Assembly: GCF_003226255.1 (NCBI RefSeq)
Contig: NZ_QJST01000004.1
Coordinates: 1 to 64,000, forward strand
Source: Idiomarina fontislapidosi
Lineage (GTDB): Bacteria; Pseudomonadota; Gammaproteobacteria; Enterobacterales; Alteromonadaceae
Direction: 5' to 3'
DNA: 64,000 nucleotides
Below, in pieces: positions 2,416-60,127 of this stretch. The notes below the pieces were generated by a model. It made no database searches. It worked only from the letters and a program-made list of their open reading frames with translations, and was not told where the DNA came from. A program made the translations under genes and the position numbers. Every line of letters begins with the position of its first letter. The first letter of the stretch is position 1.

Positions 2416-3939
<1,524 letters not shown>

Positions 3940-7646: not shown

Positions 7647-8471
7647 TTATTCTTTATCTTGCTTTTGGATATGTACATCCATCTGAGGGAACGGAATACC
7701 AATACCCTCTTCATCTAAGCGATCCTTGATCTTCTCGAGCAGATCCCAGCGCGTTGGCCAAACATCTTCGGTTTTGGTCCATGGACGTACGTTAAAGTCG
7801 ACCGAAGAGCTGTTAAGTGCTGTCACTGTCACTACTGGGGCTGGCTCTTGCAAAATACGTTCATCGTTCTTTAACACATCCATTAATACGGCTTTGGTCT
7901 TTTGCAAGTTTGCGCTGTAGCTTACCCCAATGACCAAATCGATACGCCGAATAGATTCGCGGTTGTAGTTGGTAATGGCGCTGCCGATTACTTGCGAGTT
8001 TGGCAAATAGACCACTTTGTTATCGGGGGTTTTCAAAATCGTCTGAAAGATATTAATTTCTTCTACCGTACCTGCGGTATTGGCAGCCTCAACGTATTCG
8101 CCCGAGCGAATGGGGCGGAACATAATCAGTAGTACACCTGATGCAATGTTTGACAATGAACCCTGCAATGCCAGACCAATGGCAAGACCGGCAGCACCTA
8201 ATATCGCAATAAAGGAGGTTGTCTCGACCCCTACCTGATTGAGCGCGACCATCAATGCGGCGATAAAAATTAATGACTTAACGATGGCGGTCAAGAAGCT
8301 GATTACCGCGTTATCGACTTGGCGCTTTTGCATGCCTTTGCGCATAATTGACGCGATAACACGCGTTGCGATTGAAGCCACAAATAGAATAATAATGGCG
8401 ACGATGACTTTGATCGAGTATTCGATCAGCATGTCTTGGTTGTTATTAATCCAATCAATGATTGCTTGCAT
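7647..8471 (-). CDS. mscS: Small-conductance mechanosensitive channel (MscS type)
   Basis: Inner-membrane channel that opens under membrane tension and releases solutes on hypo-osmotic shock. The 274 residues are close to the E. coli MscS size. Three transmembrane helices occupy about residues 18-36, 60-82 and 88-125. The pore helix TM3 has the Gly/Ala-packed motif AAGLAIGLALQGSLSNIASG. The cytoplasmic vestibule follows, including PNSQVIGSAITNY. The chosen ATG has AAGGA 7 bp upstream; the preceding TTG is not needed. It is transcribed alone. Confidence 0.96.
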   Translation of the reverse strand: MQAIIDWINNNQDMLIEYSIKVIVAIIILFVASIATRVIASIMRKGMQKRQVDNAVISFLTAIVKSLIFIAALMVALNQVGVETTSFIAILGAAGLAIGLALQGSLSNIASGVLLIMFRPIRSGEYVEAANTAGTVEEINIFQTILKTPDNKVVYLPNSQVIGSAITNYNRESIRRIDLVIGVSYSANLQKTKAVLMDVLKNDERILQEPAPVVTVTALNSSSVDFNVRPWTKTEDVWPTRWDLLEKIKDRLDEEGIGIPFPQMDVHIQKQDKE

Positions 8472-8576
8472 CAAAGTATCCTTTTATTAGCAAATATACG
8501 GTTATATATAGCATCTTATTTTTTGAAGATGTGTTCAGATTAACGGTAATTTTTTAAGTCGGCAAGTCGGTTCGCT

Positions 8577-18883: not shown

Positions 18884-19764
18884 TATTCCTGCTGGTTAGG
18901 AAGCTGCAGACTCAGCTCGATACGCTCACCATTACGGAGCACCGTCACTGTCGCTTCGGTCGCTTCTTGTAATTGGCTGCTCAGCTGCGAGGCTTGTTGC
19001 ATATCGGTCAAGTCATAGCCGTTAATCGCGATGGCTAGATCACCTTCCTGAAAGCCTGCTTGATAAAATATATCCGCCTGATTGCCTGGCGAGAGGCGAT
19101 AGCCTTGTAAGCTGCCTTGTTCTAAAACCGGTGCAATCGACACGTAATCTAATAGCTGACCTGGATCACGTTGCACGCGTTGCAACGCATCCGATGTATT
19201 GCCAGTAGGCTCAGGCTCACTCGCCTCAGCGCTCTCGACCACCAACGATAATGCGGGACGATCTTCACCAATATCTTCTAACTGCAGTGTTTCGAGACGT
19301 CCACCGTTATCTAAAATCACACGGTCGGCAAGAATTTGCTCGACGGTCACACGACTACGACCGATTGTATCACCCACGATATAGGTGGATTGTTTACCGG
19401 CTTGTTCGATAATTGCTGCGGAGCGCTCAGGGCGCGAACTTGCTGACACGCCTACTAAGCGGACATTAAGTGCGGTTTTTGGAGCATTGGCATAACTATT
19501 ACCACGGCTTTGCGTGCCCGCTTGTTGACGGCCAAAAATAGAGAGTTGCTGTAGCTTGGCGAGATCGACACTTTGATTGTCGCCACTTTGTGAACGCACA
19601 TCTACGTTAGGACGCTGTTGCGTTGCTGGGGGAGGCGTCATAAACCACCAAGTCGCTTGCGCCGCAACGATAACGACCCATATCCATAAAAGCACCGTAA
19701 CTACTGTTACGGAACGGGATATCCACTGATTCGCGTTCTGGGTTGATGGCATTAGGCTTATCAA
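18883..19764 (-). CDS. gspC: Type II secretion inner-membrane protein C
   Basis: Bitopic protein that joins the platform to the secretin and helps select substrates. The N-terminal helix lies at about 19-42 (VVTVLLWIWVVIVAAQATWW). A homology-region domain (about 70-150) contacts GspD N0. The C-terminal PDZ domain is at about 205-285 (QEGDLAIAINGYDLTD). It is 293 residues from the first ATG; an internal ATG at residue 5 is also possible. It is the first gene of the gsp operon, so the operon promoter should lie just upstream. Confidence 0.95.
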   Translation of the reverse strand: MISLMPSTQNANQWISRSVTVVTVLLWIWVVIVAAQATWWFMTPPPATQQRPNVDVRSQSGDNQSVDLAKLQQLSIFGRQQAGTQSRGNSYANAPKTALNVRLVGVSASSRPERSAAIIEQAGKQSTYIVGDTIGRSRVTVEQILADRVILDNGGRLETLQLEDIGEDRPALSLVVESAEASEPEPTGNTSDALQRVQRDPGQLLDYVSIAPVLEQGSLQGYRLSPGNQADIFYQAGFQEGDLAIAINGYDLTDMQQASQLSSQLQEATEATVTVLRNGERIELSLQLPNQQE

Positions 19765-44978: not shown

Positions 44979-45776
44979 CTATGCTTTGGTGCTCTGCTTT
45001 TGCCCGTAAACTAATAACCCAATGCCTAAGATAATCATCGGAATCGTTAGCCACTGCCCCATCGACATGCCAAGTGATAGGAGTCCTAAATGTGCATCGG
45101 GCTCACGGAAAAATTCGATGGTAAAGCGCGCCACGCCGTAACCTAATAAAAATAGTCCACTGATAGCGCCGGTGCCACGAGGCTTACGTTGGAACCACCA
45201 GATCAATGCAAATAAGACTAAGCCCTCGAGTACCGCTTCGTACAGTTGCGATGGGTGACGCGGAACGGGTCCGCCCGATGGGAAAATCATCGCCCAAGGG
45301 ACATCAGTGGCTCGACCCCATAACTCTCCATTAATAAAGTTACCCATGCGTCCAAAGAACAGACCCATTGGCACTAACGGGGCAATCATATCGCCGACAG
45401 CAAGAAATCTGCGCTGAGTGAGATGCGCATAAATATACATGGCCGCAATAACACCGAGCAGACCGCCATGGAACGACATGCCGCCTTCCCAGACACGGAA
45501 TAAGTAGACAGGGTCGGCAATGAACAGGTCGAAATGATAAAAAATGACATAACCTATGCGACCGCCAATCAGCACACCTAAGAAGCACCAAAAGATCAGG
45601 TCTGAAAATTTGTCGCGCGTCCAGTCCGGTGAACGTTCGGCTTGTCGACCGCCCCACCATGACGCGAACGCAAAGCCGAGCAAGTACATCACGCCATACC
45701 AATGTATAGCGAGTGGACCAATGCTAAACAACACAGGATCGATATTGGGAAACTGCATGTATTCGTTCAGTGGCAC
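44979..45776 (-). CDS. lgt: Phosphatidylglycerol--prolipoprotein diacylglyceryl transferase
   Basis: Inner-membrane enzyme that adds the diacylglyceryl group to lipobox cysteines. Seven transmembrane helices; the Lgt signature is [14 protein letters not shown]. Other conserved blocks are [23 protein letters not shown] and [17 protein letters not shown] with AAGGAG 6 bp upstream was chosen; the TTG two codons earlier abuts the ribosome site. It is 265 residues long. It supplies a function BamB and the PilF-like protein both need. Confidence 0.97.
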
Positions 45777-45786
45777 GAACAACTCC

Positions 45787-46581
45787 TTAGAAAAATATCA
45801 GTTTTATAGCCACGACAATTAAGAAAATCGCAAATATACGTCGTAATAGTTTAACGGGCAGACTATGCGCCAACTTTGCCCCGATTGGCGCACACAGCAC
45901 CGACGCAATCGAAATCGTCAGCCACGCGGGTACATGAATAATACCCAAAGCTCCGTGAGCGACACCCGAACTGTAGCCTTTAACAATAAAGATAAATACG
46001 GCGCTGCAACCGATGATAAAGCTACCCAGCGACGAGATCGCGATGGCTTGCCGCACAGAAAGTCCGCAGCGTTGCAGGAATGGCACTGTTAATGCGCCAC
46101 CGCCAATCCCAACTAGGCCCGATATCACACCAATGATAGTCGACCCCAAACTCAGCCAGCGCTGCTTGATGCGCCCGACCTGTGCTTTTTGAGCGGCAGG
46201 TGGCATTGCCATGCGTATAGCTAGCACGACTAACACGGTTGAGAAGAATACTTTCAGCCAATGTGGATCAATGGCTGTCACAAGGAAGGCACCCACCATG
46301 GCGCCTATAGATAATCCGGGTAACACACGTACGACCCAAAACCGCTCTTGTAGTCCCGAGCGGTAGTGACTATATGCGGCGCTGGCAGTTGTCATACAAA
46401 TGGTGGCTAGGCTGGTTGCAATCGCTGTGGGCATTACCAAACTCGGTTCAATTCCCAGCTTTGGTGCAAGGTATACGATCAGCGGCACAATCACCAAGCC
46501 GCCACCGATACCCAATAAGCCCGCCAATGTCCCGGCAAATACGCCGCCGACTAAACACCAGATAATCAGCGTCAGATCCAT
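45787..46581 (-). CDS. TSUP family transporter (TauE/SafE)
   Basis: Inner-membrane carrier of the sulfite/sulfonate exporter superfamily. The 264 residues comprise about eight helices in two repeats, each opening with the G-x-GGG motif (AGLLGIGGGLVIVPL; SGLVGIGGGALTVPF). The substrate is uncertain. It sits between ptsP and lgt with 3-10 bp gaps, so it belongs to the rppH-thyA operon. Confidence 0.93.
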   Translation of the reverse strand: MDLTLIIWCLVGGVFAGTLAGLLGIGGGLVIVPLIVYLAPKLGIEPSLVMPTAIATSLATICMTTASAAYSHYRSGLQERFWVVRVLPGLSIGAMVGAFLVTAIDPHWLKVFFSTVLVVLAIRMAMPPAAQKAQVGRIKQRWLSLGSTIIGVISGLVGIGGGALTVPFLQRCGLSVRQAIAISSLGSFIIGCSAVFIFIVKGYSSGVAHGALGIIHVPAWLTISIASVLCAPIGAKLAHSLPVKLLRRIFAIFLIVVAIKLIFF

Positions 46582-46584
46582 GGC

Positions 46585-48858
46585 TTACTTCCCTGCCCGC
46601 ACAAACCCACCAAGGCCCATGCTTTCCATCTTCTCGGCGATCATGCTTCTGACTTGCTCTGGACGGCGTGCTTGTAAAGCCTTGGCAAGCATGACTTGCA
46701 AAGTACTCGAACGGACATTGCGGAGGATCCAACGTACACGATCAACGTTATAGCTGTTCATACTGAGCTGTCGATAACCCATCGCCACTAACAGTAAGGC
46801 ACCGCCAGGATCGCCGGCGAGTTCCCCACACACACTGACTGGTTTACCTAATTCTTCGCATCGCCGTGCGATTTCATCCAAGCTCGCCAGCACCGCTGGG
46901 TGATACGCATCGTACAAGCTGGCTACACGACGGTTATTACGGTCAACGGCAAGTAGGTACTGAGTTAAATCGTTGCTACCCACCGAGAAAAAATCCACTT
47001 TACTGGCAAGCATGGGTAACTGATAGATGGCCGCGGGCACTTCAATCATGACCCCTAACTGAGGCTGAAATAAATTCACGCCAACCGCGCAACCTTGTTC
47101 TTCTGCCACCTCAAAGTAGGCTTGTTTGAGCAACCGTGCCGCTTCCTCGACTTCACTGACACTGGTAATCATCGGCAATAAGATACGTAAATTACTGCGA
47201 CCGATACTCGCGCGCAGCATCGCACGTATCTGCACGAGGAAAATTTCGGGGTGGTCAAGGGTCAATCGGATTCCGCGCCAACCAAGAAACGGATTATCTT
47301 CTTGTAACTTTAAGTACGGTAAGGGCTTATCTCCGCCCACATCCAAAGTCCGCATAATGACGGGTTGGTCAGGGAAGTAATCTAATACTTCCTTGTACAT
47401 CTCGACTTGCTCGTCTTCTGTCGGCAGTTGCTCGCGCATCATAAACGGGATTTCTGAGCGATAGAGACCCACCCCATCAATATTCAGTTGGCGCAGATAA
47501 TCTTGGTGTATATCCAGCCCCAAGTTTAGGTGCAGACTTACACGTTGTCCGTCTTGGGTCTGTGCTGGCAAATGCGCATGCTCAGCGACGATGGACTTAA
47601 GTTCTTCTTCCTCGTCGGCTAGGTGTTGATACTGCTCTCGCACTTGCGGCGGTGGGTTGATATACACTTCGCCAGTGTAGCCGTCGACGATCAATACTTT
47701 TTCAGAGAAATAGTGCAGCTCGATATCATCGACACCGAGTACCGCAGGAATACCCATACTCCGCGCCATAATCGCAGCATGAGAGTTACTCGAGCCGCGC
47801 AGCGAGATAATCCCAGCAATTTTTGCACGGGGGAGCTCTGCGAGCATCGATGCGGTGACTTCGTCGGCGACCAAAATGCCTTGTTCGGGAAATTCTCGGC
47901 GTTTGCGTTGTCGTTGCTGAAGGTGCATCAGCACCCGCTGACCGATATCTCTCACATCGGTTGCCCGCTCGCGCAAGTAGGAGTCTTCTAACGCTTCGAA
48001 TTGGTCAACGAACTCCTCGACCACGTGTTTTAAAGCCGTTTGTGCTCGCCAACCCTTAGCAATCATCTCCTCGACCGCATTACCTAAACTCGCCGCATCT
48101 AACATGCCCTGATAGACATCAAAAATCGCTAAAGTGTCGTCTGGCACTTGCCCATACATGCGTTCAGCAAGCTGCTTTAACTCAGCACGGGTGCGCGCAA
48201 CGGCTTGACGAAACTTGCGCACTTCATGCAGAGGGCGATCGGTTTTTTGCGGAGAGACTTCTTTTAAACTCACTTCAGGACGCGCTACATAGGTTTCCCC
48301 TATCGCGACCCCTGGCGATCCTGGGAGCGCCTGAATACTGTGTACCCAAGGTGAGTGCTCATTGGTTAGTAGCCCTTTCGTGTTGGCATGCGCGATGACA
48401 ACCGATAGCTGGGCAGCAAGTGTAACAACAAAGGCTTCTTCTTCGCGGGTGAAGTGACGTGCTTCACTTTGATGCACCACCAGAATACCGAGCACTTTCC
48501 GGCGATGAATAATCGGCGCCGCCAATAAAGCCCGATACTGCGACTCGTTGGTATCAGAAAGAGCCTTGTTTGCCGGGTGGTTACTGATGTCAGCAATGTT
48601 CAACGGTTCTTCCCGTTGCGCAGCTAAGGAAATGATGCCATCACCAAAATCTACACGAATAGCCTCACCCGATGCATCGGCTAAGCCGTCACTCGCCGCC
48701 ATCACATACTGATGAGCTTGTGCATCTGCGAGGAACACACTGCAGCTGTCGGTCTCAAGCGCAGCACGCACTTGAGACACCATCGTACGAAGCGCCAGCT
48801 GAAAATCAGCCGCTTTATTTACACTCTCGACGATTCGCTGCAGGGTGACCAGCATCAT
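46585..48858 (-). CDS. ptsP: Nitrogen phosphotransferase system enzyme I (EI-Ntr)
   Basis: Autophosphorylates from PEP and passes phosphate to NPr in the nitrogen PTS. The 757 residues have an N-terminal GAF domain (about 5-155), a phospho-histidine domain with the active His in RGSSNSHAAIMARSMGIPA (about 345-360), and the PEP-binding barrel with the catalytic Cys in VSVCGELAGDPGG near 700. The start overlaps the rppH stop in TAATGATG; the second ATG is also possible. Confidence 0.97.
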   Translation of the reverse strand: MMLVTLQRIVESVNKAADFQLALRTMVSQVRAALETDSCSVFLADAQAHQYVMAASDGLADASGEAIRVDFGDGIISLAAQREEPLNIADISNHPANKALSDTNESQYRALLAAPIIHRRKVLGILVVHQSEARHFTREEEAFVVTLAAQLSVVIAHANTKGLLTNEHSPWVHSIQALPGSPGVAIGETYVARPEVSLKEVSPQKTDRPLHEVRKFRQAVARTRAELKQLAERMYGQVPDDTLAIFDVYQGMLDAASLGNAVEEMIAKGWRAQTALKHVVEEFVDQFEALEDSYLRERATDVRDIGQRVLMHLQQRQRKRREFPEQGILVADEVTASMLAELPRAKIAGIISLRGSSNSHAAIMARSMGIPAVLGVDDIELHYFSEKVLIVDGYTGEVYINPPPQVREQYQHLADEEEELKSIVAEHAHLPAQTQDGQRVSLHLNLGLDIHQDYLRQLNIDGVGLYRSEIPFMMREQLPTEDEQVEMYKEVLDYFPDQPVIMRTLDVGGDKPLPYLKLQEDNPFLGWRGIRLTLDHPEIFLVQIRAMLRASIGRSNLRILLPMITSVSEVEEAARLLKQAYFEVAEEQGCAVGVNLFQPQLGVMIEVPAAIYQLPMLASKVDFFSVGSNDLTQYLLAVDRNNRRVASLYDAYHPAVLASLDEIARRCEELGKPVSVCGELAGDPGGALLLVAMGYRQLSMNSYNVDRVRWILRNVRSSTLQVMLAKALQARRPEQVRSMIAEKMESMGLGGFVRAGK

Positions 48859-49397
48859 TAACGCTTCCGTCTATTAGAACGGCCATGTCGCGCATGGCGG
48901 TTCGAGGCTTTGGGGGTGTTCAAACTGGGCATTGCATACGCAGCGAACTCTCTCATTACGCGACGATATACATCACGTTTGAACGATACGACCTGGCGCA
49001 CTGGGTACCAAAAGCTCACCCATCGCCAACCATCAAATTCCGGGTGTCCGGACTGTAGAACGTCGACATCTTCTTCACGACACTTAAGCTTTAACAGAAA
49101 CCACTTTTGTTTCTGTCCAACACACATGGGCCGTTGTTCCCGCCGAATTAACCGTTTAGGTAAACGGTAGCGGAACCAGTGACGGCTGGTGTACAGAATT
49201 TCTACCTGCTCTGGCTTTAGACCGACTTCTTCCCAAAGTTCTCGGTACATTGCCTGTTCAGGGGTCTCACCATCATCGATACCGCCCTGCGGAAATTGCC
49301 AGCTATGCTGGTTGATGCGGCGAGCCCAAAATACCTGCCCATGCCCGTTACAGATGACGATTCCTACGTTTGCACGGAATCCTTCAGCATCTATCAC
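48858..49397 (-). CDS. rppH: RNA pyrophosphohydrolase
   Basis: Removes pyrophosphate from 5'-triphosphate mRNA to start decay. A GTG start at 49397 was chosen: it yields the family N-terminus (M)[14 protein letters not shown] and has GAGG 8 bp upstream. The frame continues 22 residues further but without homology. The Nudix box [22 protein letters not shown] is complete. The 179 residues end in a basic tail ([13 protein letters not shown]). It heads the rppH-ptsP-TSUP-lgt-thyA operon. Confidence 0.95.
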
Positions 49398-49463
49398 GCG
49401 AGCATCCTCAATTATTCTTTGATAAAGTGATTCTTCCATAAAGGGCGACTCGGAGCAAATCAA

Positions 49464-50144
49464 ATGCGTTTCCCAGTATCGGCACCAACATCAATTGAGA
49501 CGTTGCTGCAGCGCGCACATCAACTCACTGGACAATCCTTCGCACAGCTTGCTGAGGATGCGGGCTTAGTGATGCCGAACGACCTTAAAAGAGACAAAGG
49601 TTGGGTGGGTATGATGCTCGAGCAGTATCTTGGCGCCAGCGCGGGCTCCAAACCCTTACAGGACTTCCCGGAGCTGGGTGTTGAGCTTAAAACGTTACCC
49701 GTCGATGAATTTGGTCAGCCGCTGGAAACAACATTTGTGTGCGTCGCCCCCTTAGTCAACACTTCAGGGTTGAACTGGTTGAACAGTAATGTACGTAATA
49801 AGTTAAGCTGTGTACTGTGGTTACCCATTGATGGTCGCCGCGCCGTGCCTTTAGGGCAACGTGTGGTGGGTCAGCCGTTTTTATGGCGCCCGACCGCCGA
49901 ACAGGATCAAGCGCTACAGCGTGATTGGGAGGAGCACATGGATCGTATTTCACTCGGTGAGGTCGAGGCGATCACGGCTCGCCAAGGGGAGTTTTTACAA
50001 ATCCGTCCCAAAGCGGCTGACGGTCGCGCACTAACCGATGCGGTGGGGCCCGATGGTCAAATTATCCAAGTGCGTCCGCGCGGTTTTTACCTAAAGAAAA
50101 CCTTTACGCGCGCCATACTAGAGCAGGTGTTTAATGCAGTTTAA
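49464..50144 (+). CDS. mutH: DNA mismatch repair endonuclease MutH
   Basis: Nicks the unmethylated strand at hemimethylated GATC sites in methyl-directed repair. The catalytic D-x(6)-E-x-K appears in [13 protein letters not shown] near residues 68-77. [12 protein letters not shown] closes the fold. It is 226 residues long and divergent from rppH, as in many relatives. Its presence implies Dam methylation in this organism. Confidence 0.97.
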
Positions 50145-50820
50145 TGTGACTCCTCAAGCCAAACGTAATGCCATTAGTTTTTGTGCCATAGCGGTCGGGC
50201 TGATTGCATTACTGGTATTCATGCATCTTGTGCGTGACGACATTCCCGTGGGTATTTCGGTAGTGCTCGGCGCTGCCGCAGGTATTTTGTTACTGCTAGG
50301 TATTGGTAAGCTGATTGAACCGCCGGTCTCATTAGTGATTACCCCGGACACCATTCGCTACATTCACCGGAAAGGTGAGTGGCAACTTGACTGGGATAAT
50401 GTCGTTCGGTTTGATGTGCCGCGCGTACACCGAATGATGGACTTAGAGGATGCGCCGTTTTTAGGCTTTAGGGTCTACAACAACGATGCGGTCTTGCAGT
50501 CGATTTCACCTCGGTTAGCGTCGGCGATCTTATTTGAACAGCGTCAATTGATGACCATGGCGCTGCGCCACGAGCGCCCCGACCAAGCTGATTACAGCGA
50601 GTATTTTGATATTCCCGAGCAATTTGTCAGTTCAGAGGGGCGAGTATACAAAGGGCTGATCGCCGTATTTGGACGCCGAATGGAACAGATGCGAGAACTC
50701 TTAGGCTACGATCTTTATGTCAGCGCGAATGCACTCGACCGAGATATCTATGAGTTTCGTGGCCATCTACAACGGTTGCAAGCATCGCGTCAGGAGGCGA
50801 AGCAAGCACCGTCAGATTAG
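50134..50820 (+). CDS. DUF2982 family membrane protein
   Basis: A 228-residue protein with two N-terminal transmembrane helices (about 12-32 and 38-58), then a cytoplasmic domain with a PH-like look ([33 protein letters not shown]). It matches my memory of DUF2982, found in Shewanella, Vibrio and relatives; function unknown. It overlaps the mutH end by 11 bp, so it is co-translated. Its end overlaps the convergent EAL gene by 4 bp. Confidence 0.75.
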
Positions 50821-51563
50821 CGTTTTAAGCATTCAAAGTCGGGGATCGTGTAGGCTTCGATTTCTGGCTTTTGAAACAGATAACCTTGCATGAGCTCTAC
50901 GCCGTTGTATTTGAGGTAGTAGTATTCATCAATTGTCTCGATCCCTTCCGCGACCAATGTAATGCCCAACTCTTCGGCAGCGCGTTGCACGGCGGAGAAT
51001 AATGCTTTTTTAATGCGATCTTCATGAATGTTGCGGATAAGCTTCATATCAATTTTCAGCAAATCGGGCTGAAAGTCGGCTAACAAGTTGAGTCCCGCGT
51101 AGCCCTCGCCAAAGTCATCTATGGCGGTCAAGAACCCATGCTCACGATAGGTCTTGAAGACATCGACCAAGAGGCTGTGGTTTTCGACTTTCTCGTGCTC
51201 TGTTACTTCAAAAATAATGTTTTCCCGCGGCAGACCTGTCTTGCGCGCGGTTTTCAATGTTTGCGCCAAACACGTCTCAGGCTCATAAATCGCGTTCGGC
51301 ATAAAATTGATACTGACTTTTGACGGCAATTGAATACGCGCTGCTGTTTCTATTGCTGTCATACGGCAGGTTTGGTCAAACGTGTATTTATTTGAATCGT
51401 TAACACGCGACAATACTTCGCCAGCGCCCTCACCGTTGGCGCCACGTACAAGCGCTTCGAAGGCAAAGACATTTTTGTCATGCACATTTACAATAGGCTG
51501 AAAAGCCATTTTGATGTCAAAGCCCAGTTCGGACTGACAATCGCATGATGGGCAAGCCGCCAT
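50817..51563 (-). CDS. Stand-alone EAL phosphodiesterase, RimA-like
   Basis: A 248-residue EAL domain with nothing else attached. The catalytic residues look complete: EALVRG, the Asn in SINFMP, FEVTE, AIDDFGEGYAG, LKIDMKLIR and LVAEGIET. It should hydrolyse c-di-GMP. The N-terminus carries a tight Cys cluster (CPSCDC, residues 4-9) that may bind metal or sense redox. It is divergent from rimB-rimK. In Pseudomonas a small EAL protein, RimA, is encoded with RimB and RimK and tunes RimK, so RimA is the likely role. Confidence 0.85.
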   Translation of the reverse strand: MAACPSCDCQSELGFDIKMAFQPIVNVHDKNVFAFEALVRGANGEGAGEVLSRVNDSNKYTFDQTCRMTAIETAARIQLPSKVSINFMPNAIYEPETCLAQTLKTARKTGLPRENIIFEVTEHEKVENHSLLVDVFKTYREHGFLTAIDDFGEGYAGLNLLADFQPDLLKIDMKLIRNIHEDRIKKALFSAVQRAAEELGITLVAEGIETIDEYYYLKYNGVELMQGYLFQKPEIEAYTIPDFECLKR

Positions 51564-51721
51564 GTTAGATTCCTCGTATCAATTGTTTGTTGCGTGATCT
51601 AAGGTAACGCAAATGAGGCTGATTTTGATCAACATGCGATCAATGATTTAACCACAAAATTTTCTTGCCTTTATTTACAAATAGTGTAATTAAGCGCTGC
51701 GAATATCGAATGGAGATAGGA

Positions 51722-52144
51722 ATGGAAATTTTAGGTTGGAAGGAATGGGGTCGATTACCGGATATTGGAATTGATGCAATCCATATGAAAGTCGACACCG
51801 GTGCCAAAACATCGTGTTTGCACGCGTTTAAATTAGAGCCGTTTGAAAAAGACGGACAAGATTGGTTGCGTGTTTTAGTACACCCTCATCAAGACAGTCT
51901 TGATGAGCACGTATTCGAATCCCCAATTCACGACCAACGCGAAGTGACCGACTCGGGCGGCCACACAGAAGTTCGCTACGTTATTCGTACGCGATTACAA
52001 CTTGGCGCTTTTGATGGACCTATTGAACTCACTTTAACTAATCGCGACACCATGAAATTTCGTATGTTGTTAGGTCGACAAGCCATGCGAAAGCGTTTTA
52101 TGGTAAACCCTGAATTAGCTCATCAACTAGGAGAGCGCACATGA
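51722..52144 (+). CDS. rimB: Retropepsin-like protease RimB (DUF785-type)
   Basis: A 140-residue protein of the 'ATP-dependent zinc protease' family, whose fold is retropepsin-like; the active-site motif [12 protein letters not shown] lies near residue 20. In Pseudomonas, RimB trims RimK-made glutamate tails on ribosomal protein S6. The ATG was chosen for its GGAG 6 bp upstream and the [10 protein letters not shown] start. It overlaps rimK by 4 bp. Confidence 0.85.
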
Positions 52145-53046
52145 GAATCGCCATTCTATCCCGTAATTCTAAACTTTACTCCACTCGTCGCTTGGTAGAG
52201 GCGGCAAAAGCGCGGGGTCACGAAGTGGACGTGCTCAATCCTTTGAGCTGTTATATGAACATCAATGCGCGCGAATCCTCGATCCATAAGCATGGTGTAG
52301 AGTTGCCGGCTTACGACTGCGTCATCCCACGTATTGGAGCCTCAGTTACGTTCTATGGTACTGCGGTGTTACGTCAGTTCGAAATGATGGGTACCTACCC
52401 ATTGAATGAATCGGTTGCGATTTCGCGCAGTCGCGACAAGCTACGCTCGTTGCAGTTGCTTTCGCGCAAAGGTATTGGCTTGCCGACCACAGGATTTGCT
52501 AGCCAACCACAGGATATTCCTGACCTGATTGATATGGTCGGTGGTGCGCCTTTGGTCATTAAATTGCTCGAAGGCACTCAAGGGATTGGTGTGGTGCTTG
52601 CTGAAACTCGCCAAGCAGCAGAAAGTGTAATTGAAGCCTTCATGGGCTTGCAGTCCAACATTATGGTGCAAGAGTACATTCGTGAAGCAGGCGGAGCTGA
52701 CATCCGTTGTTTTGTCATCGGTGACAAGGTCATCGCGGCAATGAAGCGTCAAGCTAAAGAAGGTGAGTTTCGCTCTAACTTACACCGTGGCGGCAGTGCG
52801 TCATTAATTAAACTGACGCCTGCTGAACGCGCTACTGCAGTCAAAGCGGCTAAAACAATGGGTCTGAATGTTGCAGGTGTCGACTTGCTGCGTTCTAACC
52901 ATGGTCCGCTGGTGATGGAAGTTAACTCGTCACCCGGTCTTGAGGGGATCGAAGCTGCAACCGAAAAAGATGTTGCCAGCCAAATTATTGCCTTCATGGA
53001 AAAGAATGCCAAAGCCCATAAAACTCGTACTAAAGGGCGTGGCTGA
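52141..53046 (+). CDS. rimK: Ribosomal protein S6--L-glutamate ligase
   Basis: An ATP-grasp ligase that adds glutamates to the C-terminus of ribosomal protein S6. The 301 residues include an N-terminal preATP-grasp domain ([22 protein letters not shown]). ATP-binding blocks are [15 protein letters not shown] and [20 protein letters not shown]. The Mg-binding end is [14 protein letters not shown]. It is very close to E. coli RimK. It is coupled to rimB upstream and to the M14 gene downstream by 1-4 bp overlaps. Confidence 0.96.
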
Positions 53047-54071
53047 TGACTGCGAGAAAGCCGCGTATGGCGGTCTTTGAATTAGCCGGCTGTCGTGTTG
53101 AGCCAGGCAGCCACCAGCATGTGCGCCTGCCGGCTGCACGTTTATATAACGATGCTCCATTGGATTTACGTATTGACGTGTTTCACGGTGTTAAACCGGG
53201 ACCGGTACTGCTACTCAGTGCCGCGATCCATGGTGACGAGCTCAATGGTATTGAAATTTGTCGACAAATTATTCAGCGTATTAATCCGCTCGAGCTGGCA
53301 GGCACCTTAATCGTGGTGCCGATTGTGAACTTGTTTGGCTTTATTCAGCAATCACGTTACCTCCCCGATCGACGTGATCTGAACCGATGTTTTCCGGGCT
53401 CAGAACGCGGTGCGCTGGGGTCCCGTATTGCCCATCTGTTTAATGAAGAACTTGTTCAGAAGGCGTCGCATATTGTCGATTTACACACGGGGGCGATTCA
53501 TCGCAGTAACCTGCCGCAAATTCGCGTCGATATCGATAATGAGCAAGCGTTAGCGATGGCAAAAGCGTTCGGTTCACCGGTCATTTTGAACTCAAAAGAG
53601 CGCGATGGGTCATTGCGTGCGTTAGCCAATAGTTTGGGCATCCCGCTTATTTTATATGAGGCAGGCGAAGCTTTACGTTTTGACGATGCGTCGATTAATT
53701 CAGGGGTCGTGGGCGTCATTAATGTGCTCAAGCATCTAAAAATGCTAAAAGGTCGCCGCCAAGGTCGACGCATATCGCCGGTCATCTCGAGTCGCTCAAC
53801 TTGGGTGCGTGCCGAGAAAGACGGTCTTGTCTTGCGCAAAGTTGAATTGGGTCAAACCGTGCAACCTGAACAAGTACTTGCGCATGTGGCAAGTCCACAT
53901 GGTGATGATGTCGATGTCATTACCTCACCGGTGCCTGGAATTATTATTGGCTGTACCAATATTCCCGTCGCTAATGAGGGTGAAGCGTTGTTTAATATTG
54001 CGCAGTTTGAGTCAGATAGTTTAGAAGAAGCTACGGATATTATCGATTCGTTTACTGAGACTTATGAATGA
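53046..54071 (+). CDS. M14-type succinylglutamate desuccinylase/aspartoacylase family protein
   Basis: A 341-residue zinc hydrolase. Zinc ligands are His and Glu in AAIHGDELNG and the later His in DLHTG; a catalytic Glu is likely in ILYEAGEA. A C-terminal beta barrel-like region (VRAEKDGLVLRKVELGQTVQPEQVLAHV) resembles a biotinyl/lipoyl-type fold seen in relatives. In family members it cleaves an acyl-amino acid amide. Next to RimK it may remove or edit glutamyl groups; that is inference. The ATG overlaps the rimK TGA by one base. Confidence 0.86.
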   Translation: MTARKPRMAVFELAGCRVEPGSHQHVRLPAARLYNDAPLDLRIDVFHGVKPGPVLLLSAAIHGDELNGIEICRQIIQRINPLELAGTLIVVPIVNLFGFIQQSRYLPDRRDLNRCFPGSERGALGSRIAHLFNEELVQKASHIVDLHTGAIHRSNLPQIRVDIDNEQALAMAKAFGSPVILNSKERDGSLRALANSLGIPLILYEAGEALRFDDASINSGVVGVINVLKHLKMLKGRRQGRRISPVISSRSTWVRAEKDGLVLRKVELGQTVQPEQVLAHVASPHGDDVDVITSPVPGIIIGCTNIPVANEGEALFNIAQFESDSLEEATDIIDSFTETYE

Positions 54072-54411
54072 TTCCAATCCCGCATTAATTGATTTTGAGC
54101 AAGGTTTACGTCATTGCGATCAACAAATGCATACGTATCATGCGGTGCTACAAGCCTTTTGTGAGCAGTATGCTGATTCCGTCTTGTTTGATCACTCGGC
54201 ACCGGATCAAGCTATCATTCATGAGCTACATTCATTAAAAGGGTTGAGCGCTACGATTGGCGCTCAACCCTTAAGTACCGCCGCAGCCACCTTGTTCCAT
54301 AACTGGACAACTCTCGATAAATCGAAACGAACTAACCACTTAGTTGATCTACAAGTCCATATTAACGCGGTTATTAAACAGGTTAACCATTACTTAACAC
54401 AAAATTGTTGA
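54064..54411 (+). CDS. Histidine phosphotransfer (HPt) domain protein
   Basis: A 115-residue all-helical protein that is a single HPt domain. The phospho-accepting His56 is in HELHSLKGLSATIGAQ, matching the H-x-L-K-G-x-[SA] signature. It overlaps the end of the M14 gene by 8 bp, so it belongs to the rim operon. No kinase or receiver is adjacent except the regulators elsewhere in the window. A strong hairpin lies inside the gene, just after the active-site codons. Confidence 0.75.
   Translation: MNDSNPALIDFEQGLRHCDQQMHTYHAVLQAFCEQYADSVLFDHSAPDQAIIHELHSLKGLSATIGAQPLSTAAATLFHNWTTLDKSKRTNHLVDLQVHINAVIKQVNHYLTQNC
54239..54272 (+). repeat. Perfect inverted repeat inside the HPt gene
   Basis: Two 13-bp arms (54239-54251 and 54260-54272) pair perfectly around an 8-nt loop. 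The run begins in an A-rich and ends in a TTAAG context, so it could work as a weak terminator or an mRNA-stability element. It lies directly after the phospho-His codons. Confidence 0.8.
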
Positions 54412-54491
54412 ACAAATTTCGGGCAATGGTTCTTATTTTTCGTTATGATCGGTCGATATAACAATAACAATAGTTTTTCGAATAAAGTGTT

Positions 54492-56195
54492 ATGGCAGAG
54501 TCCGATAAGGCGATACAGTTTGAACGCTCCGGCGAAGACATTTACGTCAGCATTTCCAAATCGACTGACGGCATTACTGCTGGGAAAATTAAAACCGCAT
54601 TTGAAATGAGTCGCTTTGCTGATGCGGTGCCCGTAAACGATGACCCCTTCGCCTTAATCGCTACTAACTTTCTTCAATGGCAGAAGAGAGAAGACGTATC
54701 AAGCCAACGATACAATGAACGCGTCGCTACGGTTCAAGATGCTCAACTATTTATCGTCATCTCTGACGACCAAATGACTGCAACAGTGAGTTGCGATGCT
54801 GCTCGCGGTGGTGAACCCATTCATCGCCAAGATATCCTTGAAGCACTCAAAGCCGCGGGCGTCGTTGCAGGCATCAAACGCAAAATGGTCGACAAAATCA
54901 TTAACCATTCACTTAAAGTCGCGTCTGGCGGTCATTTTGAGGCAACTATTGCTCGGGGCGTTACCGCAAAAAATGGCAAAAATGCTTGGTTTGAGCGGCT
55001 GGTTGACGATGCACGTCAACGCGTATTGAGGCCCCAAGCGCGTGATGACGGTACGGTTGATATGCGCGATTTAGGGGAACAGGTAACGGTTCTCGAAGGC
55101 GAGCCACTGCTGCGAAAGCATCCGCCGACGCGAGGGCGACATGGCTGTACTGTGAAAGGTAACGTCATCGAAGCGTTCGACGGCGTTGATGCCGAGATGA
55201 TTGCTGGCGAGGGCACACGCCGCTCCGATGAGGACGACGCGGTGATCGTTGCAGATCGCACAGGGATGCCTTGGTTTACCCATAACTCTGCCAATGTTGA
55301 TGACATTTTGACGCTCAAGTCGGTTGATGTTGCAACTGGACACGTAAAGTTTAAGGGCAGTGTCATAGTCACCGGTAATGTCACTGAGGGCATGCATGTT
55401 GAGTGCACTGGTGACATCACGGTTGCCGGTTATGTCGACTCTGCACAGTTACGCGCAGGTGGTAGTATTACCGTACGTAAAGGTTGTATTGGTCGTATCT
55501 CGTCTGAGGACGAGCAACGCTTGCAAGCCGATGAGACCTATATCCCGCATTTGTCCTCAAAAATGGTCGCCGGCGCATCAATTTGGTGTGCCTACGCGCA
55601 ATATGCCTATTTGGAATGTAAACAGACACTGACCATTGACCGTCAGTTAACTCACTGCCATATTCGAACGGCTGGAGAGTCCTTCATTGGCGGAACCGAG
55701 AGCACGGCACGAGGTAAGATTATCGGAGGAACCTTCGAAACGTGTGCCGATGTCTCGGCAGGTCAGCTCGGGGCACGGGCAGGCACACTGACACGGTTTT
55801 TGCTTTCGGCGCCGGCCCCACAACTCAGTGATCAAAGCACCCTGACCCGGTTATATAAGCAATTACGCGCTATCACAGGCACACTCAAACGAATAAAGCT
55901 CGGTCTAGAGCGTTGTGATTCACTCGCTAATGACGAACAACAGAAGTCACTAAAGCAATCGTTACGCTCTGCGGCCAAAACAGAGCTCGCCGCTATGCAA
56001 GGGGTACAAAACGACCTAAAAGTGATGCGCGCTTCACTAAAAAACCATCCAACGCTAAGGATAGTTGCTGCAAAAGAGGTGTTTCCTGGTGTTCGGCTAG
56101 AATATAACGAGAAAAAACTCCGCATCAAGGAGCATCGGGGTGGTACACTATTACTATTAAAAGATCATGAACTTAGAATGGATATTTTACGATAA
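54492..56195 (+). CDS. FapA/DUF342 family protein
   Basis: A 567-residue protein of the DUF342/FapA family. It has a central beta-helix region rich in short repeats (VDVATGHVKFKGSVIVTGNVTEGMHVECTGDITVAGYVDSAQLRAGGSITVRKGCIG). A helical segment follows near 435-520, then a C-terminal beta end (GVRLEYNEKKLRI). Members are tied to flagellar or polysaccharide functions in some bacteria, but function is not settled. No flagellar genes are nearby. It follows the rim/HPt operon by 80 bp. Confidence 0.85.
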   Translation: MAESDKAIQFERSGEDIYVSISKSTDGITAGKIKTAFEMSRFADAVPVNDDPFALIATNFLQWQKREDVSSQRYNERVATVQDAQLFIVISDDQMTATVSCDAARGGEPIHRQDILEALKAAGVVAGIKRKMVDKIINHSLKVASGGHFEATIARGVTAKNGKNAWFERLVDDARQRVLRPQARDDGTVDMRDLGEQVTVLEGEPLLRKHPPTRGRHGCTVKGNVIEAFDGVDAEMIAGEGTRRSDEDDAVIVADRTGMPWFTHNSANVDDILTLKSVDVATGHVKFKGSVIVTGNVTEGMHVECTGDITVAGYVDSAQLRAGGSITVRKGCIGRISSEDEQRLQADETYIPHLSSKMVAGASIWCAYAQYAYLECKQTLTIDRQLTHCHIRTAGESFIGGTESTARGKIIGGTFETCADVSAGQLGARAGTLTRFLLSAPAPQLSDQSTLTRLYKQLRAITGTLKRIKLGLERCDSLANDEQQKSLKQSLRSAAKTELAAMQGVQNDLKVMRASLKNHPTLRIVAAKEVFPGVRLEYNEKKLRIKEHRGGTLLLLKDHELRMDILR

Positions 56196-56198
56196 ATT

Positions 56199-57218
56199 AT
56201 GGCCGTTCAATCGACCTCTGATGCTGTTGCAAGCCTACTGAATCGTCACAGTCATGCCAGTTGGCTATCATCCCCAATCGAAAAACGTCTTGTCGTACAT
56301 CCCGATGGTCACCAGTTGGCGCCGCTGTTCAACCATGCTTGGTGTTTGCATGTGGGTCATGCACAACACTATAAATACAGCTATACCGAAGCCCAGGCAC
56401 CGTCCCTGAACCATTTTGAACTGATTCTTTTAGTCGTAGCTAAAGAGCAAGCGCTGAACCAATGGTTATTGCAGCAACTTGCATTACAAGCACCAACCGC
56501 GCGTATCCTTATCGTTGGCGAAAAACGCGGTGGCGTCACAAGTTTGGTAAAAAAGCTCCCTAAAGGTTATGCCAAAGCGACTAAACTGGCGTCGGGTAAT
56601 CATTGTCAGCTGTTCGAAACACACGTGCTAGCGCAACCATCATCCGCCGATTTGACTGATGACTTGCCCGCCTTTAGTGTTGAGTGGAGAGGTATCAGTG
56701 CTACATTTACGACACTACCGGGCGTCTTCAGCCAAGGTCGCCTGGATGCAGGCACCGAATTATTGCTCGACCACCTTCCGGAAAACATGCAGGGTAAAGT
56801 GATGGATTTTGCCTGCGGAAGTGGCGTTATCGGTGCGATGGTTGCACGCAAGTTTAAAATTGAACTGGTCGCCTCAGATGTCAGCCCAATGGCAATTGAG
56901 AGCACACGCTGCAATTGGCAAAGCATCGGCGTCGAAGGCGACTTGCTGCTCGCCGACGGTTTACCCAGCTTAAGTGCCAGTGGTTTTCAATTTATTCTGA
57001 GTAACCCGCCATTTCATACGGGCTTGCGAACGGATTACGATATTGGAGAGCAGTTTATTCATCACGCTTACCAACAGCTTAGCCTCGGAGGCGAGCTAAT
57101 TATCGTTGCTAATCGCTTTTTACCTTGGCCAGAACATATTCAGAAGGTATTCGGCCACTGTCAAACAATTGCCGATGACGGCAAGTTTAAAGTGTTAAGA
57201 AGCAAACGTTTAAGTTGA
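56199..57218 (+). CDS. rsmC: 16S rRNA guanine(1207)-N2 methyltransferase
   Basis: Methylates G1207 of 16S rRNA in the 30S subunit. The 339 residues form an N-terminal pseudo-methyltransferase domain and a C-terminal active one, with the SAM motif VMDFACGSGVIGAM and the catalytic ILSNPPFHTG. Four bases separate it from the DUF342 gene. Confidence 0.95.
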   Translation: MAVQSTSDAVASLLNRHSHASWLSSPIEKRLVVHPDGHQLAPLFNHAWCLHVGHAQHYKYSYTEAQAPSLNHFELILLVVAKEQALNQWLLQQLALQAPTARILIVGEKRGGVTSLVKKLPKGYAKATKLASGNHCQLFETHVLAQPSSADLTDDLPAFSVEWRGISATFTTLPGVFSQGRLDAGTELLLDHLPENMQGKVMDFACGSGVIGAMVARKFKIELVASDVSPMAIESTRCNWQSIGVEGDLLLADGLPSLSASGFQFILSNPPFHTGLRTDYDIGEQFIHHAYQQLSLGGELIIVANRFLPWPEHIQKVFGHCQTIADDGKFKVLRSKRLS

Positions 57219-57324
57219 ATATACAATTCTTCGCGTTGAATTTGTTGAGATTTGGATGCACACTCATTAACCATTTGATAACATAGACTAAACAAGATAA
57301 CAAAGTCGTCTACGCGCCACCATA

Positions 57325-58944
57325 ATGCAGACCATTTCACTTAAAAGAGGCTTAATTTATATTGTACTGTTAATCACCGTCGTCGCTTTGGCAATCGGGT
57401 TCAGTATCAATCTATTCAGTCAAATGAGTCAGTACCGCCAAGCACTCCTGGATCGTAGCCAGTCCGATGCGCGTATGATTGCTGCTCATGCAGTTCAGAA
57501 CTTAGCATTCAGTGACAACACCGCCGAACAACGCCGACTTTCTACTTTAAGTAACAACCAATTTATTCAGCACGTCCATATTTATAAAATTGATAGTGTA
57601 AGTGGTGATTTGAGTTTCTTTTCAAGTTACAACAAAGAGGGCTTGGCCCCCATACCCGCTAAATTTGCTCAGATCGAACGTCTTTCATCGCCACGTCTAC
57701 AGGAAGAATACATCGAGGTTGCGCAAGCTATCCAACTTGACGGACAAGTCGTCGGTTATGTCTATTTGAGAGCGAGCAACAACGAGTTAAGATTGTTTAA
57801 ACTGCGTTCGTTCGCTGTCGCCTGCACTGTATTTGTCTTGACCTTATTAATCTGTACGCTTCTGACTCTGCGATTACGACGTATTCTGAGCCAACCTTTG
57901 GATCGAATCGTCGATATTGTCTCGCAGATTTCGCGCAATAAAGATTACGGATTGCGCCTACCCGAATCACGAGTGAATGAGTTTAACGAGCTCGGTAATG
58001 CCTTAAACATTATGCTCGAACGGGTACAGCATCATATTTTGCGTCAGCAAAAGGCGGAACGCGAAGCAAGCCAGCTCAATGCCGAGCTCGAGCAACAAGT
58101 GACCCAACGCACCAAAGCCCTGCGGGAGTCTAACCAAGAGTTGCTCACCACTCTGGAACAATTACATAAGTATCAGGGCCAGTTAGTGGAGTCTGAGAAA
58201 ATGGCATCGCTCGGGGATATGGTCGCCGGCGTCGCCCATGAAGTTAATACGCCAATTGGACTTTCAGTGACTGCATCAACATTACTGCAAGACAAGTTGG
58301 CGATCATGCGGGAGAAATTTGACGAAAAGCGGATTTCGACCAACGAGTTTGCGCGCTTTCTTGAGGATTGCGATGAAAACTTGTCAATTATCTATCGTAA
58401 CTTGAACCGCGCAGCTGACTTAGTCACAAGCTTCAAACAAGTTGCAGTCGACCAGTCTTCTGAGGTTGACCGCGCGATTGATATCGAGCAGTTCACTCGC
58501 GATATGTTGATTTCAGTTAAGCCAAGACGCCTCAATGCAGAGCACTTCCCAATTAATATTGAGTATGCGCCTGGACTGTGTATCGTGACAAAGCCAGGGC
58601 CACTCAACCAAATATTGATTAACTTGGTTACAAACTCCATGGTCCATGGATTTGATAATCGTGAGCAAGGACGGGTGGACATCTTGTTTGAGCGTCGCGA
58701 AAACGAACTGCAAATCACCTACCGCGACGATGGTCGTGGAGTCCCCAACGATATTGGGAAGAAAATTTTTGATCCTTTTGTAACAACCAAGCGCGGTTCT
58801 GGTGGAAGTGGCTTGGGACTTCACTTGGTTTACAATTTGGTTACTCAAGTATTGGGGGGCCAAATACACTTTTTCAGCGAACTTGATCACGGCGTCGAAT
58901 TTATTGTTCGTTTTCCGGTTAAATCGTGCGAAAATCAAACTTAA
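57325..58944 (+). CDS. CHASE8 sensor histidine kinase
   Basis: A membrane kinase of 539 residues. TM1 is at about 9-31, a periplasmic CHASE8-like domain at 32-160, TM2 at 162-184 (FAVACTVFVLTLLICTLLTL) and HAMP at 185-240. A coiled coil follows, then an H-box with His305 in AGVAHEVNTPIG. ATP motifs are N (NLVTNSMVHG), G1 (DDGRGVP) and G2 (GSGGSGLGLHLV). There is no receiver or HPt. It lies 113 bp before arcA, with an HPt gene just beyond, which fits a split relay; the partner is not proven. Confidence 0.87.
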   Translation: MQTISLKRGLIYIVLLITVVALAIGFSINLFSQMSQYRQALLDRSQSDARMIAAHAVQNLAFSDNTAEQRRLSTLSNNQFIQHVHIYKIDSVSGDLSFFSSYNKEGLAPIPAKFAQIERLSSPRLQEEYIEVAQAIQLDGQVVGYVYLRASNNELRLFKLRSFAVACTVFVLTLLICTLLTLRLRRILSQPLDRIVDIVSQISRNKDYGLRLPESRVNEFNELGNALNIMLERVQHHILRQQKAEREASQLNAELEQQVTQRTKALRESNQELLTTLEQLHKYQGQLVESEKMASLGDMVAGVAHEVNTPIGLSVTASTLLQDKLAIMREKFDEKRISTNEFARFLEDCDENLSIIYRNLNRAADLVTSFKQVAVDQSSEVDRAIDIEQFTRDMLISVKPRRLNAEHFPINIEYAPGLCIVTKPGPLNQILINLVTNSMVHGFDNREQGRVDILFERRENELQITYRDDGRGVPNDIGKKIFDPFVTTKRGSGGSGLGLHLVYNLVTQVLGGQIHFFSELDHGVEFIVRFPVKSCENQT

Positions 58945-59057
58945 TCTGGGTTTTTGTTGAAAAATTTTGAACAAAAGTCATAATGTGGCATTAATAGAAC
59001 TGTACTCAGTATTTTTCAATTCGTCACTCGAACTAATTGCTAGGAACGCACCGCTTT

Positions 59058-59780
59058 ATGAACGCCAGACTTTTAATTGTTGAAGATGAGGTGGTTACTC
59101 GCCAAACATTAACGCGACTCTTTCAGCAAGAAGGCTATGAAGTATTTGACGCTGCTGACGGCTTGCAGATGGAAAATATCATGCGCCAAGAGCGTATCGA
59201 TGTTGTCATTATGGATGTCAACTTACCCGGTAAAAACGGTTTAGAGCTCGCAGAGTCTTTACGTGAACGAGATAACATCGGTCTTATCTTCTTAACAGGA
59301 AGAGACAGCGAAGATGATCGCTTACTTGCACTCGAACTTGGCGCTGACGACTATCTGATTAAACCTTATAACCCGAAAGAACTGACTATTCGTGTGCGTA
59401 ATTTGTGTCGCCGCATTGAGTCGTCACGTTCGAGCAGCCCGGTCGATAACGATAGCGTGCAGTTCAACTTTCATGGTTGGCGCCTTAATAGCGATAGCCG
59501 CTGCTTATACTCTCCAGACAGTCAAATGTTTAGACTGCCTAAGAGTGAATACCGTGCGTTAGAATTATTTCTAACGAACCCGGGTCGCATTCTTGACCGT
59601 GAAACGTTAGTTAAACGTATGTTGGATCGTGAACTGCGTCCTAATGATCGTACTGTAGATGTTGCGATTCGCCGCATTCGTCGTCATTTCGAATCACATC
59701 CCGAGACACCGAACCTGATTACCACCATTCATGGTGAAGGTTACCGGTTTATTGGCGAGGTCGAGCAAGAGTCTCAGTGA
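59058..59780 (+). CDS. arcA: Response regulator ArcA
   Basis: An OmpR/PhoB-type regulator, very close to ArcA, which controls respiration and fermentation genes under oxygen limitation. The receiver has Asp53 (VIMDVNLPGKNGLELA), the switch LTGRDSEDDRLLALELGADDY and the Lys in IKPYNPKEL. The C-terminal winged helix ends GYRFIGEVEQ. The ATG (240 residues) was chosen; a TTG 7 codons earlier is unlikely. The 3' end overlaps hptA by 7 bp. Confidence 0.94.
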   Translation: MNARLLIVEDEVVTRQTLTRLFQQEGYEVFDAADGLQMENIMRQERIDVVIMDVNLPGKNGLELAESLRERDNIGLIFLTGRDSEDDRLLALELGADDYLIKPYNPKELTIRVRNLCRRIESSRSSSPVDNDSVQFNFHGWRLNSDSRCLYSPDSQMFRLPKSEYRALELFLTNPGRILDRETLVKRMLDRELRPNDRTVDVAIRRIRRHFESHPETPNLITTIHGEGYRFIGEVEQESQ

Positions 59781-60127
59781 GACTTTTGCTCTAGCCACAT
59801 ATCAATTTGCTGACGGTGTGGTGTTACGCTGTCAGCCCAATTCAATAGCCACTGTTCGGCTTGCGCCCAATTCCACTGATGTTTCTCGATATTTTCCATG
59901 TACACGGCGAGTGCCTTGAGACCGACTGAGCGACACGCTCCTTTAATTTTGTGTGCTTGTGAGCGCACTGCTTCTTCATCTTCACTATCAACCGCCGTTT
60001 GCAAAACACTGGCGTAATCTTTGATAACACTATCAAAGGTTTCGAGACTTAGCATTAATCCTTCTTTGCCTAATGATTCGTAATATTGCGTCAATAATTC
60101 AGTATCGAGTACATCAGAATTTGTCAT
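59774..60127 (-). CDS. hptA: ArcB-like HPt protein (HptA)
   Basis: A 117-residue stand-alone phosphotransfer protein. His59 is in SQAHKIKGACRSVGLKAL, and the AHKIKGA-x-x-SVGL pattern is the ArcB HPt signature. In Shewanella, which lacks a full-length ArcB, HptA relays phosphate from kinase ArcS to ArcA. Here the gene is convergent with arcA with a 7-bp overlap, which supports that role. No other function seems more likely. Confidence 0.85.
   Translation of the reverse strand: MTNSDVLDTELLTQYYESLGKEGLMLSLETFDSVIKDYASVLQTAVDSEDEEAVRSQAHKIKGACRSVGLKALAVYMENIEKHQWNWAQAEQWLLNWADSVTPHRQQIDMWLEQKSH

Follow-up and report, generated by a model that had tools for sequence, protein, structure and literature searches.

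An M14-family hydrolase gene behind rimK in Idiomarina fontislapidosi and its probable functional link to the RimB-RimK enzymes

Which of the genes around a rimB-rimK pair in Idiomarina fontislapidosi belong to one functional system, and which task an M14-family hydrolase encoded directly behind rimK might have in it, are the questions addressed here. The pair lies within a stretch of 64,000 nucleotides (positions 1 to 64,000 of contig NZ_QJST01000004.1; hereafter the window). A first-pass annotation had described five genes at this place, namely a stand-alone EAL phosphodiesterase gene and, divergent from it, an operon of rimB, rimK, an M14 gene and an HPt gene, and had proposed that they connect cyclic di-GMP (c-di-GMP), phosphorelay and ribosome tailoring. 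The five genes are present as described, and the overlaps of 4, 1 and 8 bp given for them are correct. The comparisons reported below indicate with high confidence that the M14 enzyme is a functional partner of RimK. The proposal concerning this enzyme is the valuable part of the earlier annotation; its ribosome, c-di-GMP and phosphorelay parts remain putative.

Association of the M14 gene with rimK

In the window, rimK (52141–53046, + strand) codes for an ATP-grasp alpha-L-glutamate ligase that passes the S6--L-glutamate ligase model (NCBIfam PRK10446, 497 bits; cut-off 331). It is followed by the M14 gene (53046–54071, +), which encodes a zinc hydrolase of the AstE/AspA family (Pfam AstE_AspA_cat, PF24827, 167 bits; cut-off 25) that is a proposed oligoglutamate hydrolase or glutamyl carboxypeptidase. 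The preceding rimB gene (51722–52144, +), which overlaps rimK, codes for a retropepsin-like aspartic endopeptidase of the Zn_protease Pfam family (121 bits; cut-off 27) with the DTG motif in VDTGAKTS, and scores 117 bits in the NCBIfam RimB model, under the cut-off of 200. The ATG at 51722, preceded by GGAG, fits the relatives better than the TTG at 51665 from which the open reading frame (ORF) was mechanically called, and is probably the true start of rimB.

A sample of 119 genomes of the order was searched for relatives of the M14 protein, among which a close subfamily (at least 45% identity) was distinguished from weaker paralogues (29–39%). In 43 of 48 matches the close M14 gene immediately follows rimK in the same orientation, with gaps between aligned ends of −13 to 119 bp (adjacency was called by script for 51 of 87 rimK rows and by eye for the remainder), and these rimK-adjacent copies span 11 families. 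None of the 22 weaker paralogues was found within 300 bp of rimK. All 46 genomes with a close M14 gene also encode rimK, compared to 73 of the 119 genomes overall, and in the genomes of the five non-adjacent close copies (G021, G064, G065, G089 and G114) rimK is present elsewhere. The co-occurrence with rimBK by which the first-pass annotation had suggested checking the M14 gene was thus borne out. A RimB match below 1e-20 was lacking in nine of the 46 genomes, some of which have weaker matches and one of which (G013) is only 85% complete; rimK-M14 pairs in such genomes are as expected if the M14 enzyme can act alone.

The association extends beyond the order. Among the best 80 of at least 573 confirmed M14 matches in named loci, rimK adjoins the M14 gene in 54, two of them from planctomycetes and one from a Rhodospirillales metagenome-assembled genome (MAG). 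Five arrangements occur in these linked loci: rimB-rimK-M14 (46), rimK-M14 (5; one, L245, has rimB about 1 kb away, and another, L205, is cut off by the end of its contig), and rimB-M14-rimK, rimK-rimB-M14 and M14-rimK (one each). RimB is encoded within the cassette in 48 of the 54. Alphaproteobacteria, planctomycetes and one cyanobacterium have the trio too, and its gene order varies. It also occurs on plasmids, 296 records of which contained an M14 match; of the seven records inspected, those from Phaeobacter, Acaryochloris and Salinivibrio carry rimB-rimK-M14, and a Vibrio europaeus plasmid has the order rimK-M14-rimB. On two haloarchaeal plasmids (L436, 3500–6023; L437, 3537–6014) an M14 gene with 34% identity is divergent from a gene for a RimK-RimB hybrid, a protein type reported mainly from Flavobacteriales and Rhodobacterales (PMC11957791). 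The M14 gene of a Pukyongiella plasmid (33% identity) lies among transporter genes, with no rim genes. The persistence of the trio in different phyla and despite reshuffled gene orders strongly indicates a joint function.

Of 19 Idiomarina genomes, 18 retain the order rimB-rimK-M14-HPt, and the M14 protein of Idiomarina sp. MD25a shares 98% identity with that of the window. The M14 gene is in two pieces in two of these 18 genomes, G120 (L178, L179) and G125 (L177), at loci free of N, which is either real damage or sequencing error. In G064, contig C19 carries beside a rimB copy an additional M14 copy (18297–19436) that is shortened and contains a stop codon; this contig has no rimK match.

Glutamate chains, ribosomal protein S6 and neighbouring channels

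RimK is reported to add glutamates to ribosomal protein S6 and to make free poly-alpha-glutamate in vitro and in vivo, stimulated by RimB, whose cutting requires five or six contiguous glutamates (PMC11957791). S6 tails of about four residues are described as remaining after RimB action (PMC10092738, PMC7343187), and the Pseudomonas model published in 2020 invokes an as-yet-unidentified protease that resets S6 (PMC7343187). Since RimB does not cut below about five glutamates, the published model needs a further protease and the M14 gene stands directly behind rimK, the M14 enzyme is a good candidate for this role. The best explanation of the conserved trio, in which we place about equal belief and doubt, is a three-enzyme glutamate-chain cycle. 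RimK would add alpha-linked glutamates to a protein C-terminus or a free chain, RimB would cut chains of about five or more glutamates as an endopeptidase, and the M14 enzyme would remove the short glutamyl remnant from the carboxyl end or hydrolyse released oligoglutamates to free glutamate. The EAL and HPt proteins would be local neighbours in Idiomarina, perhaps regulators there, and not core parts. Within this cycle the M14 enzyme would most likely act on glutamyl chains too short for RimB, trimming or recycling them.

The window resembles the RimABK/RimBK system of Pseudomonas (PMC4741518, PMC7343187, PMC11957791, PMC10092738) in its adjoining, overlapping rimB and rimK genes and in the passing of the ligase model by RimK, but differs from RimABK in the M14 gene behind rimK, in a divergent EAL gene scoring under the RimA cut-off, in the HPt gene and in the S6 protein. 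In each of the 19 Idiomarina genomes, that of the window included, S6 has the C-terminus SEAA, ending in Ala-Ala and not in Glu, so that the acidic C-terminal acceptor is missing, and tailoring of the ribosome at this locus, as the first-pass annotation had proposed, is doubtful for this reason. The acceptor rule is only partly known, a lysine at the penultimate S6 position being reported to block modification in P. fluorescens (PMC4741518). S6 sequences were obtained from 116 of the 119 genomes of the order. A terminal glutamate is present in 36 of 45 genomes with M14, 24 of 27 that have rimK but no M14, and 24 of 44 that lack rimK. In the last group, some genomes are very small, three S6 tails are truncated by the end of the stretch and one tail is masked. 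The terminal glutamate does not separate the M14 genomes from the rimK genomes without M14, and S6 may be a RimK target in many hosts.

A different setting became apparent from the genes flanking the cassette. Among 91 immediate neighbours scanned (of 106), MscS channels (14), CorA (8) and MgtE (3) were found, besides SNF symporters (6), M20 peptidases (5) and DUF2461 proteins (4); among second neighbours (72 of 103 scanned) CorA occurred twice and MscS was absent from the 25 families shown. An MscS gene lies within 450 bp in 18 of the 54 linked named loci, from Marinobacter (nine), Pseudoalteromonas (five), Aliidiomarina (two), Halovibrio (one) and the Rhodospirillales MAG (one). Genes for MscS, CorA or MgtE occur within 1.5 kb in 23 of the 54 linked versus one of the 26 unlinked named loci (Fisher test, 2e-4). 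In the order sample, 14 of 40 genomes with a linked cassette, from six families, have at least one of them next to it, versus none of 113 control loci (1e-9), the controls being regions around S6, unlinked EAL and HPt genes that include many from Idiomarina and, among 60 S6 loci, three duplicates. Related genomes were counted as independent, so that significance is overstated. The channel profiles were built from the named loci and also detect the ordinary MscS of the window, and the cassette loci comprise more bases per genome than the controls and fewer overall (276 kb vs 383 kb). In two genomes, G009 and G017, the MscS gene lies between M14 and rimB, the full order in G009 being rimK-M14-MscS-rimB-MgtE-CorA. 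Just before MscS-rimB-rimK-M14, a gene for a protein of about 270 amino acids is present in Marinobacter, Halovibrio and Aliidiomarina (12 named loci) and in one genome of Idiomarina. Three such proteins (L441, 1713–2519; L185, 3012–3806; L218, 2867–3691) had no Pfam match, and that of L441 had no NCBIfam match.

Beside the cassette of the window, no MscS, CorA or MgtE gene was found, nor was the gene for the protein of about 270 amino acids found anywhere in the window. Away from the cassette, an ordinary MscS-type channel gene (7647–8474, −) and a weak match to the MgtE profile (2416–3939, −; 6e-8), perhaps due only to a shared CBS domain, were observed. The Vibrio europaeus plasmid (L440, 1325–3977) has a diguanylate cyclase gene 28 bp before rimK-M14-rimB, which is followed by MgtE, CorA and MscS genes.

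The tie to ionic or osmotic conditions that we infer from this enrichment leads to a related explanation, in which RimK would store glutamate as a free polyanion, to be released by RimB and the M14 enzyme, alongside MscS and magnesium transporters and with S6 not as the main target. This is possible, if on balance doubtful. It would account for the frequency of channel and transporter genes at linked loci and for the MscS genes inserted within the cassette. K05844 is taken here to be rimK. A gene set that includes it is reported to be commoner in brackish than in marine genomes (PMC10219603), and the free poly-glutamate made by RimK with RimB points in the same direction (PMC11957791). However, free poly-glutamate is described as low in wild-type P. 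fluorescens (PMC11957791), hypo-osmotic growth as unchanged by a rimB deletion in P. aeruginosa (PMC12239564), and the window itself lacks the neighbouring transporters; moreover, S6 carries the terminal glutamate in 60 of 72 genomes with rimK against 24 of 44 without it, which favours S6 as target. A comparable case is RloABC of P. aeruginosa, which likewise combines a retropepsin and an ATP-grasp protein in one operon and is tied to hypo-osmotic survival, but in which RloA carries a signal peptide and acts together with a transglutaminase that is inactive; the available part of that report makes no mention of an M14 enzyme (PMC12239564).

Residues, fold and possible substrate of the M14 enzyme

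In 44 aligned M14 sequences, including that of the window, H62, E65, H147, N113, R114 and E205 are invariant. By analogy with the aspartoacylase family we assume that these residues provide the zinc ligands, the substrate arginine and the catalytic base. The Pfam match, the zinc-ligand pattern H-x2-E...H, the catalytic glutamate and the fold are those of the AstE/AspA family (PF24827). The predicted structure has a mean predicted local distance difference test score (pLDDT) of 90.5, with residues 101–110 being weak, and its nearest fold matches are DoeB (6twm; template modelling (TM) score about 0.8, 25% identity) and 3cdx. The M14 protein thus shares fold, zinc-ligand and DLNR motifs and catalytic glutamate with DoeB, AstE and AspA, but differs from them in its rimK neighbour and in scores far under all three curated cut-offs (DoeB 94.5 of 402.7, AstE 28.1 of 305.65 and aspartoacylase 29.6 of 180 bits). 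The role of a second eraser or editor of glutamyl tails, which the first-pass annotation had assigned to this enzyme, fits the fold, the invariant catalytic residues and the place next to rimK; the substrate is the conjectural part, and it is roughly an even call that it would be oligoglutamate.

Two M14-fold systems offer comparisons for such an activity. In the cyanophycin system, chain synthesis is catalysed by CphA1, which is an ATP-grasp enzyme. The polymer is then cut by an endopeptidase, cyanophycinase, and M14-type enzymes such as CphZ are reported to hydrolyse the resulting dipeptides (PMC10206079). CphZ is a lower fold match of the M14 model (TM 0.66–0.71) with 13–14% identity, and polymer and endopeptidase are different, so that the relation is one of analogy and not of membership; nevertheless, the parallel of an ATP-dependent ligase, an endopeptidase and an M14-fold finisher suggests the mechanism proposed above. 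The tubulin deglutamylases are the second case: these CCP enzymes are M14-fold hydrolases that remove glutamates from tubulin, but they belong to another subfamily and are structurally distant, CCP5 having appeared at rank 48 of the fold search (TM 0.48 and 0.37).

The fold matches also bear on the explanation that the M14 enzyme hydrolyses small N-acyl amino acids and provides RimK with glutamate or another substrate, or that an N-acyl-glutamate metabolite is both made and degraded by the two enzymes. The closest solved relatives are indeed DoeB and proteins named after AstE/AspA, and mammalian RimK-like enzymes make N-acetylaspartylglutamate. We regard a small-molecule role as unlikely, since it would not need the polyglutamate endopeptidase RimB, which is encoded in the same cassette in nearly all linked named loci.

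Several observations weigh against the three-enzyme glutamate-chain cycle as the preferred explanation. The M14 gene is missing from 27 of the 73 rimK genomes, 10 of which have RimB (<1e-20), and no rimK match was found in the fetched flanks (up to 6 kb) of 26 of the 80 named loci, one of which (L241) is on a contig that ends 205 bp before M14. The genome samples are not phylogenetically independent. In Idiomarina, and in nine of the 45 M14 genomes with an S6 match, S6 has no terminal glutamate, and DoeB, the nearest solved relative with a known activity, acts on a small N-acyl amino acid and not on chains.

The EAL and HPt genes and the wider role of the cassette

The EAL gene (50817–51563, −) is divergent from rimB and convergent with DUF2982-MutH. 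With rimB starting at the ATG, the region between the two genes (51564–51721) measures about 158 bp. The encoded protein matches Pfam EAL with 157 bits, within a broad subfamily that includes RimA, and its residues E36, N86, E119, D149, D150, K170, E206 and Q226 are invariant in eight aligned sequences including that of the window. Their catalytic roles are assumed from the EAL family, and the first-pass description of a stand-alone, apparently catalytic domain agrees with these data. Its identification as RimA is weak, as the protein scores 328 bits in the NCBIfam RimA model (cut-off 430) and is encoded on the strand opposite to rimBK, where the RimA gene of RimABK is co-transcribed. RimA-like EAL genes outside the two genera Idiomarina and Aliidiomarina had rimBK within 1.5 kb in none of 14 loci of the order and none of 20 loci of the class, and ten of these unlinked proteins outscore that of the window in the RimA model. 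The EAL protein was consequently rejected as a proven RimA, and its membership in the system, judged from gene neighbourhoods, is not supported outside Idiomarina and Aliidiomarina.

Within Idiomarina, less than 200 bp separate the EAL gene from rimB in 17 of 19 genomes, the seventeenth being G122, where the middle of the gene reads N. An IS110 element separates the two genes in G123, and the gene for the protein of about 270 amino acids together with an MscS gene does so in G135. The same pair lies between EAL and rimB in two of four named Aliidiomarina loci (L185 and L186); in a third the EAL gene is about 290 bp off, and in the fourth no EAL match of at least 40% was found. Near-rimB EAL genes of both genera all adjoin DUF2982 and MutH, and the adjacency of EAL and rimB in Idiomarina may stem from loss of the channel pair.

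The HPt gene (54064–54411, +) encodes a domain recognised by Pfam Hpt (27 bits; cut-off 24.6) with a phospho-acceptor histidine, His56, identified by motif. It directly follows M14 in 18 of 19 Idiomarina genomes and in none of four from Aliidiomarina, and the matches in the 15 other genomes of the order that have one are all located in ORFs of at least 382 amino acids. The protein is fast-evolving, with His56 invariant in 13 aligned of 18 sequences. In one locus (L443, genome G122) M14 and rimK are 99% identical to those of the window, HPt only 46% and fapA 66–75%; divergence rises abruptly where M14 ends, which suggests recombination. As a gene found beside M14 only in Idiomarina, HPt did not show the co-occurrence expected of the system member that the first-pass annotation had seen in it, and it was ruled out as a core part. 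It is followed by fapA (54492–56195, +), which encodes a FapA/DUF342 beta-solenoid protein and is a conserved neighbour in the genus, and then by rsmC. At 3–6 kb from the HPt gene, a CHASE8 histidine kinase (57325–58944, +) and an ArcA-like response regulator (59037–59780, +; NCBIfam 337 bits, cut-off 334) are encoded, the regulator with an HPt protein of its own, a separate stand-alone one (59774–60127, −; best model ArcB) whose gene is convergent with that of the regulator. No Rfam match was obtained in positions 45000–60000 of the window, and consensus scans for promoters (12 vs 10.2) and terminators (12 vs 8.9) barely exceeded shuffled sequences.

A five-part system, in which a RimA-like EAL protein would sense c-di-GMP, HPt would give phosphorelay input and the M14 enzyme would edit glutamyl tails of S6, is therefore quite improbable, because, despite the conserved adjacency and intact active residues of EAL and HPt in Idiomarina, the diguanylate cyclase gene before rimK in Vibrio europaeus and a few GGDEF genes near the cassette (2 among 91 immediate neighbours and 5 among 72 second neighbours), HPt is bound to the genus, the EAL gene is unlinked elsewhere and has other genes between it and rimB in four relatives, and S6 ends in SEAA.

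The glutamate-chain cycle of RimB, RimK and the M14 enzyme thus remains the preferred explanation. The setting of channels and transporters lies outside the window and is additional to the first-pass annotation, and a search of the open-licence PMC literature found no description of the M14-rimK pair or its channel neighbours. Tentatively, the trio may constitute a mobile poly-alpha-glutamate cycle, common to bacteria and, as hybrid and M14 enzyme, to haloarchaea, that contributes to ionic or osmotic homeostasis together with mechanosensitive channels and magnesium transporters; the M14 enzyme would close it as an exo-acting oligoglutamate hydrolase, and S6 glutamylation would be one of several outputs, in Idiomarina probably not the principal one. 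For Pseudomonas-type ribosome modification, the M14 enzyme is a named candidate for the protease that frees S6 of its added glutamates, the last step of the published model. The channel and magnesium-transporter neighbourhood, together with the lack of a terminal glutamate on S6 in Idiomarina, suggests that the role of RimK is wider than ribosome tailoring.

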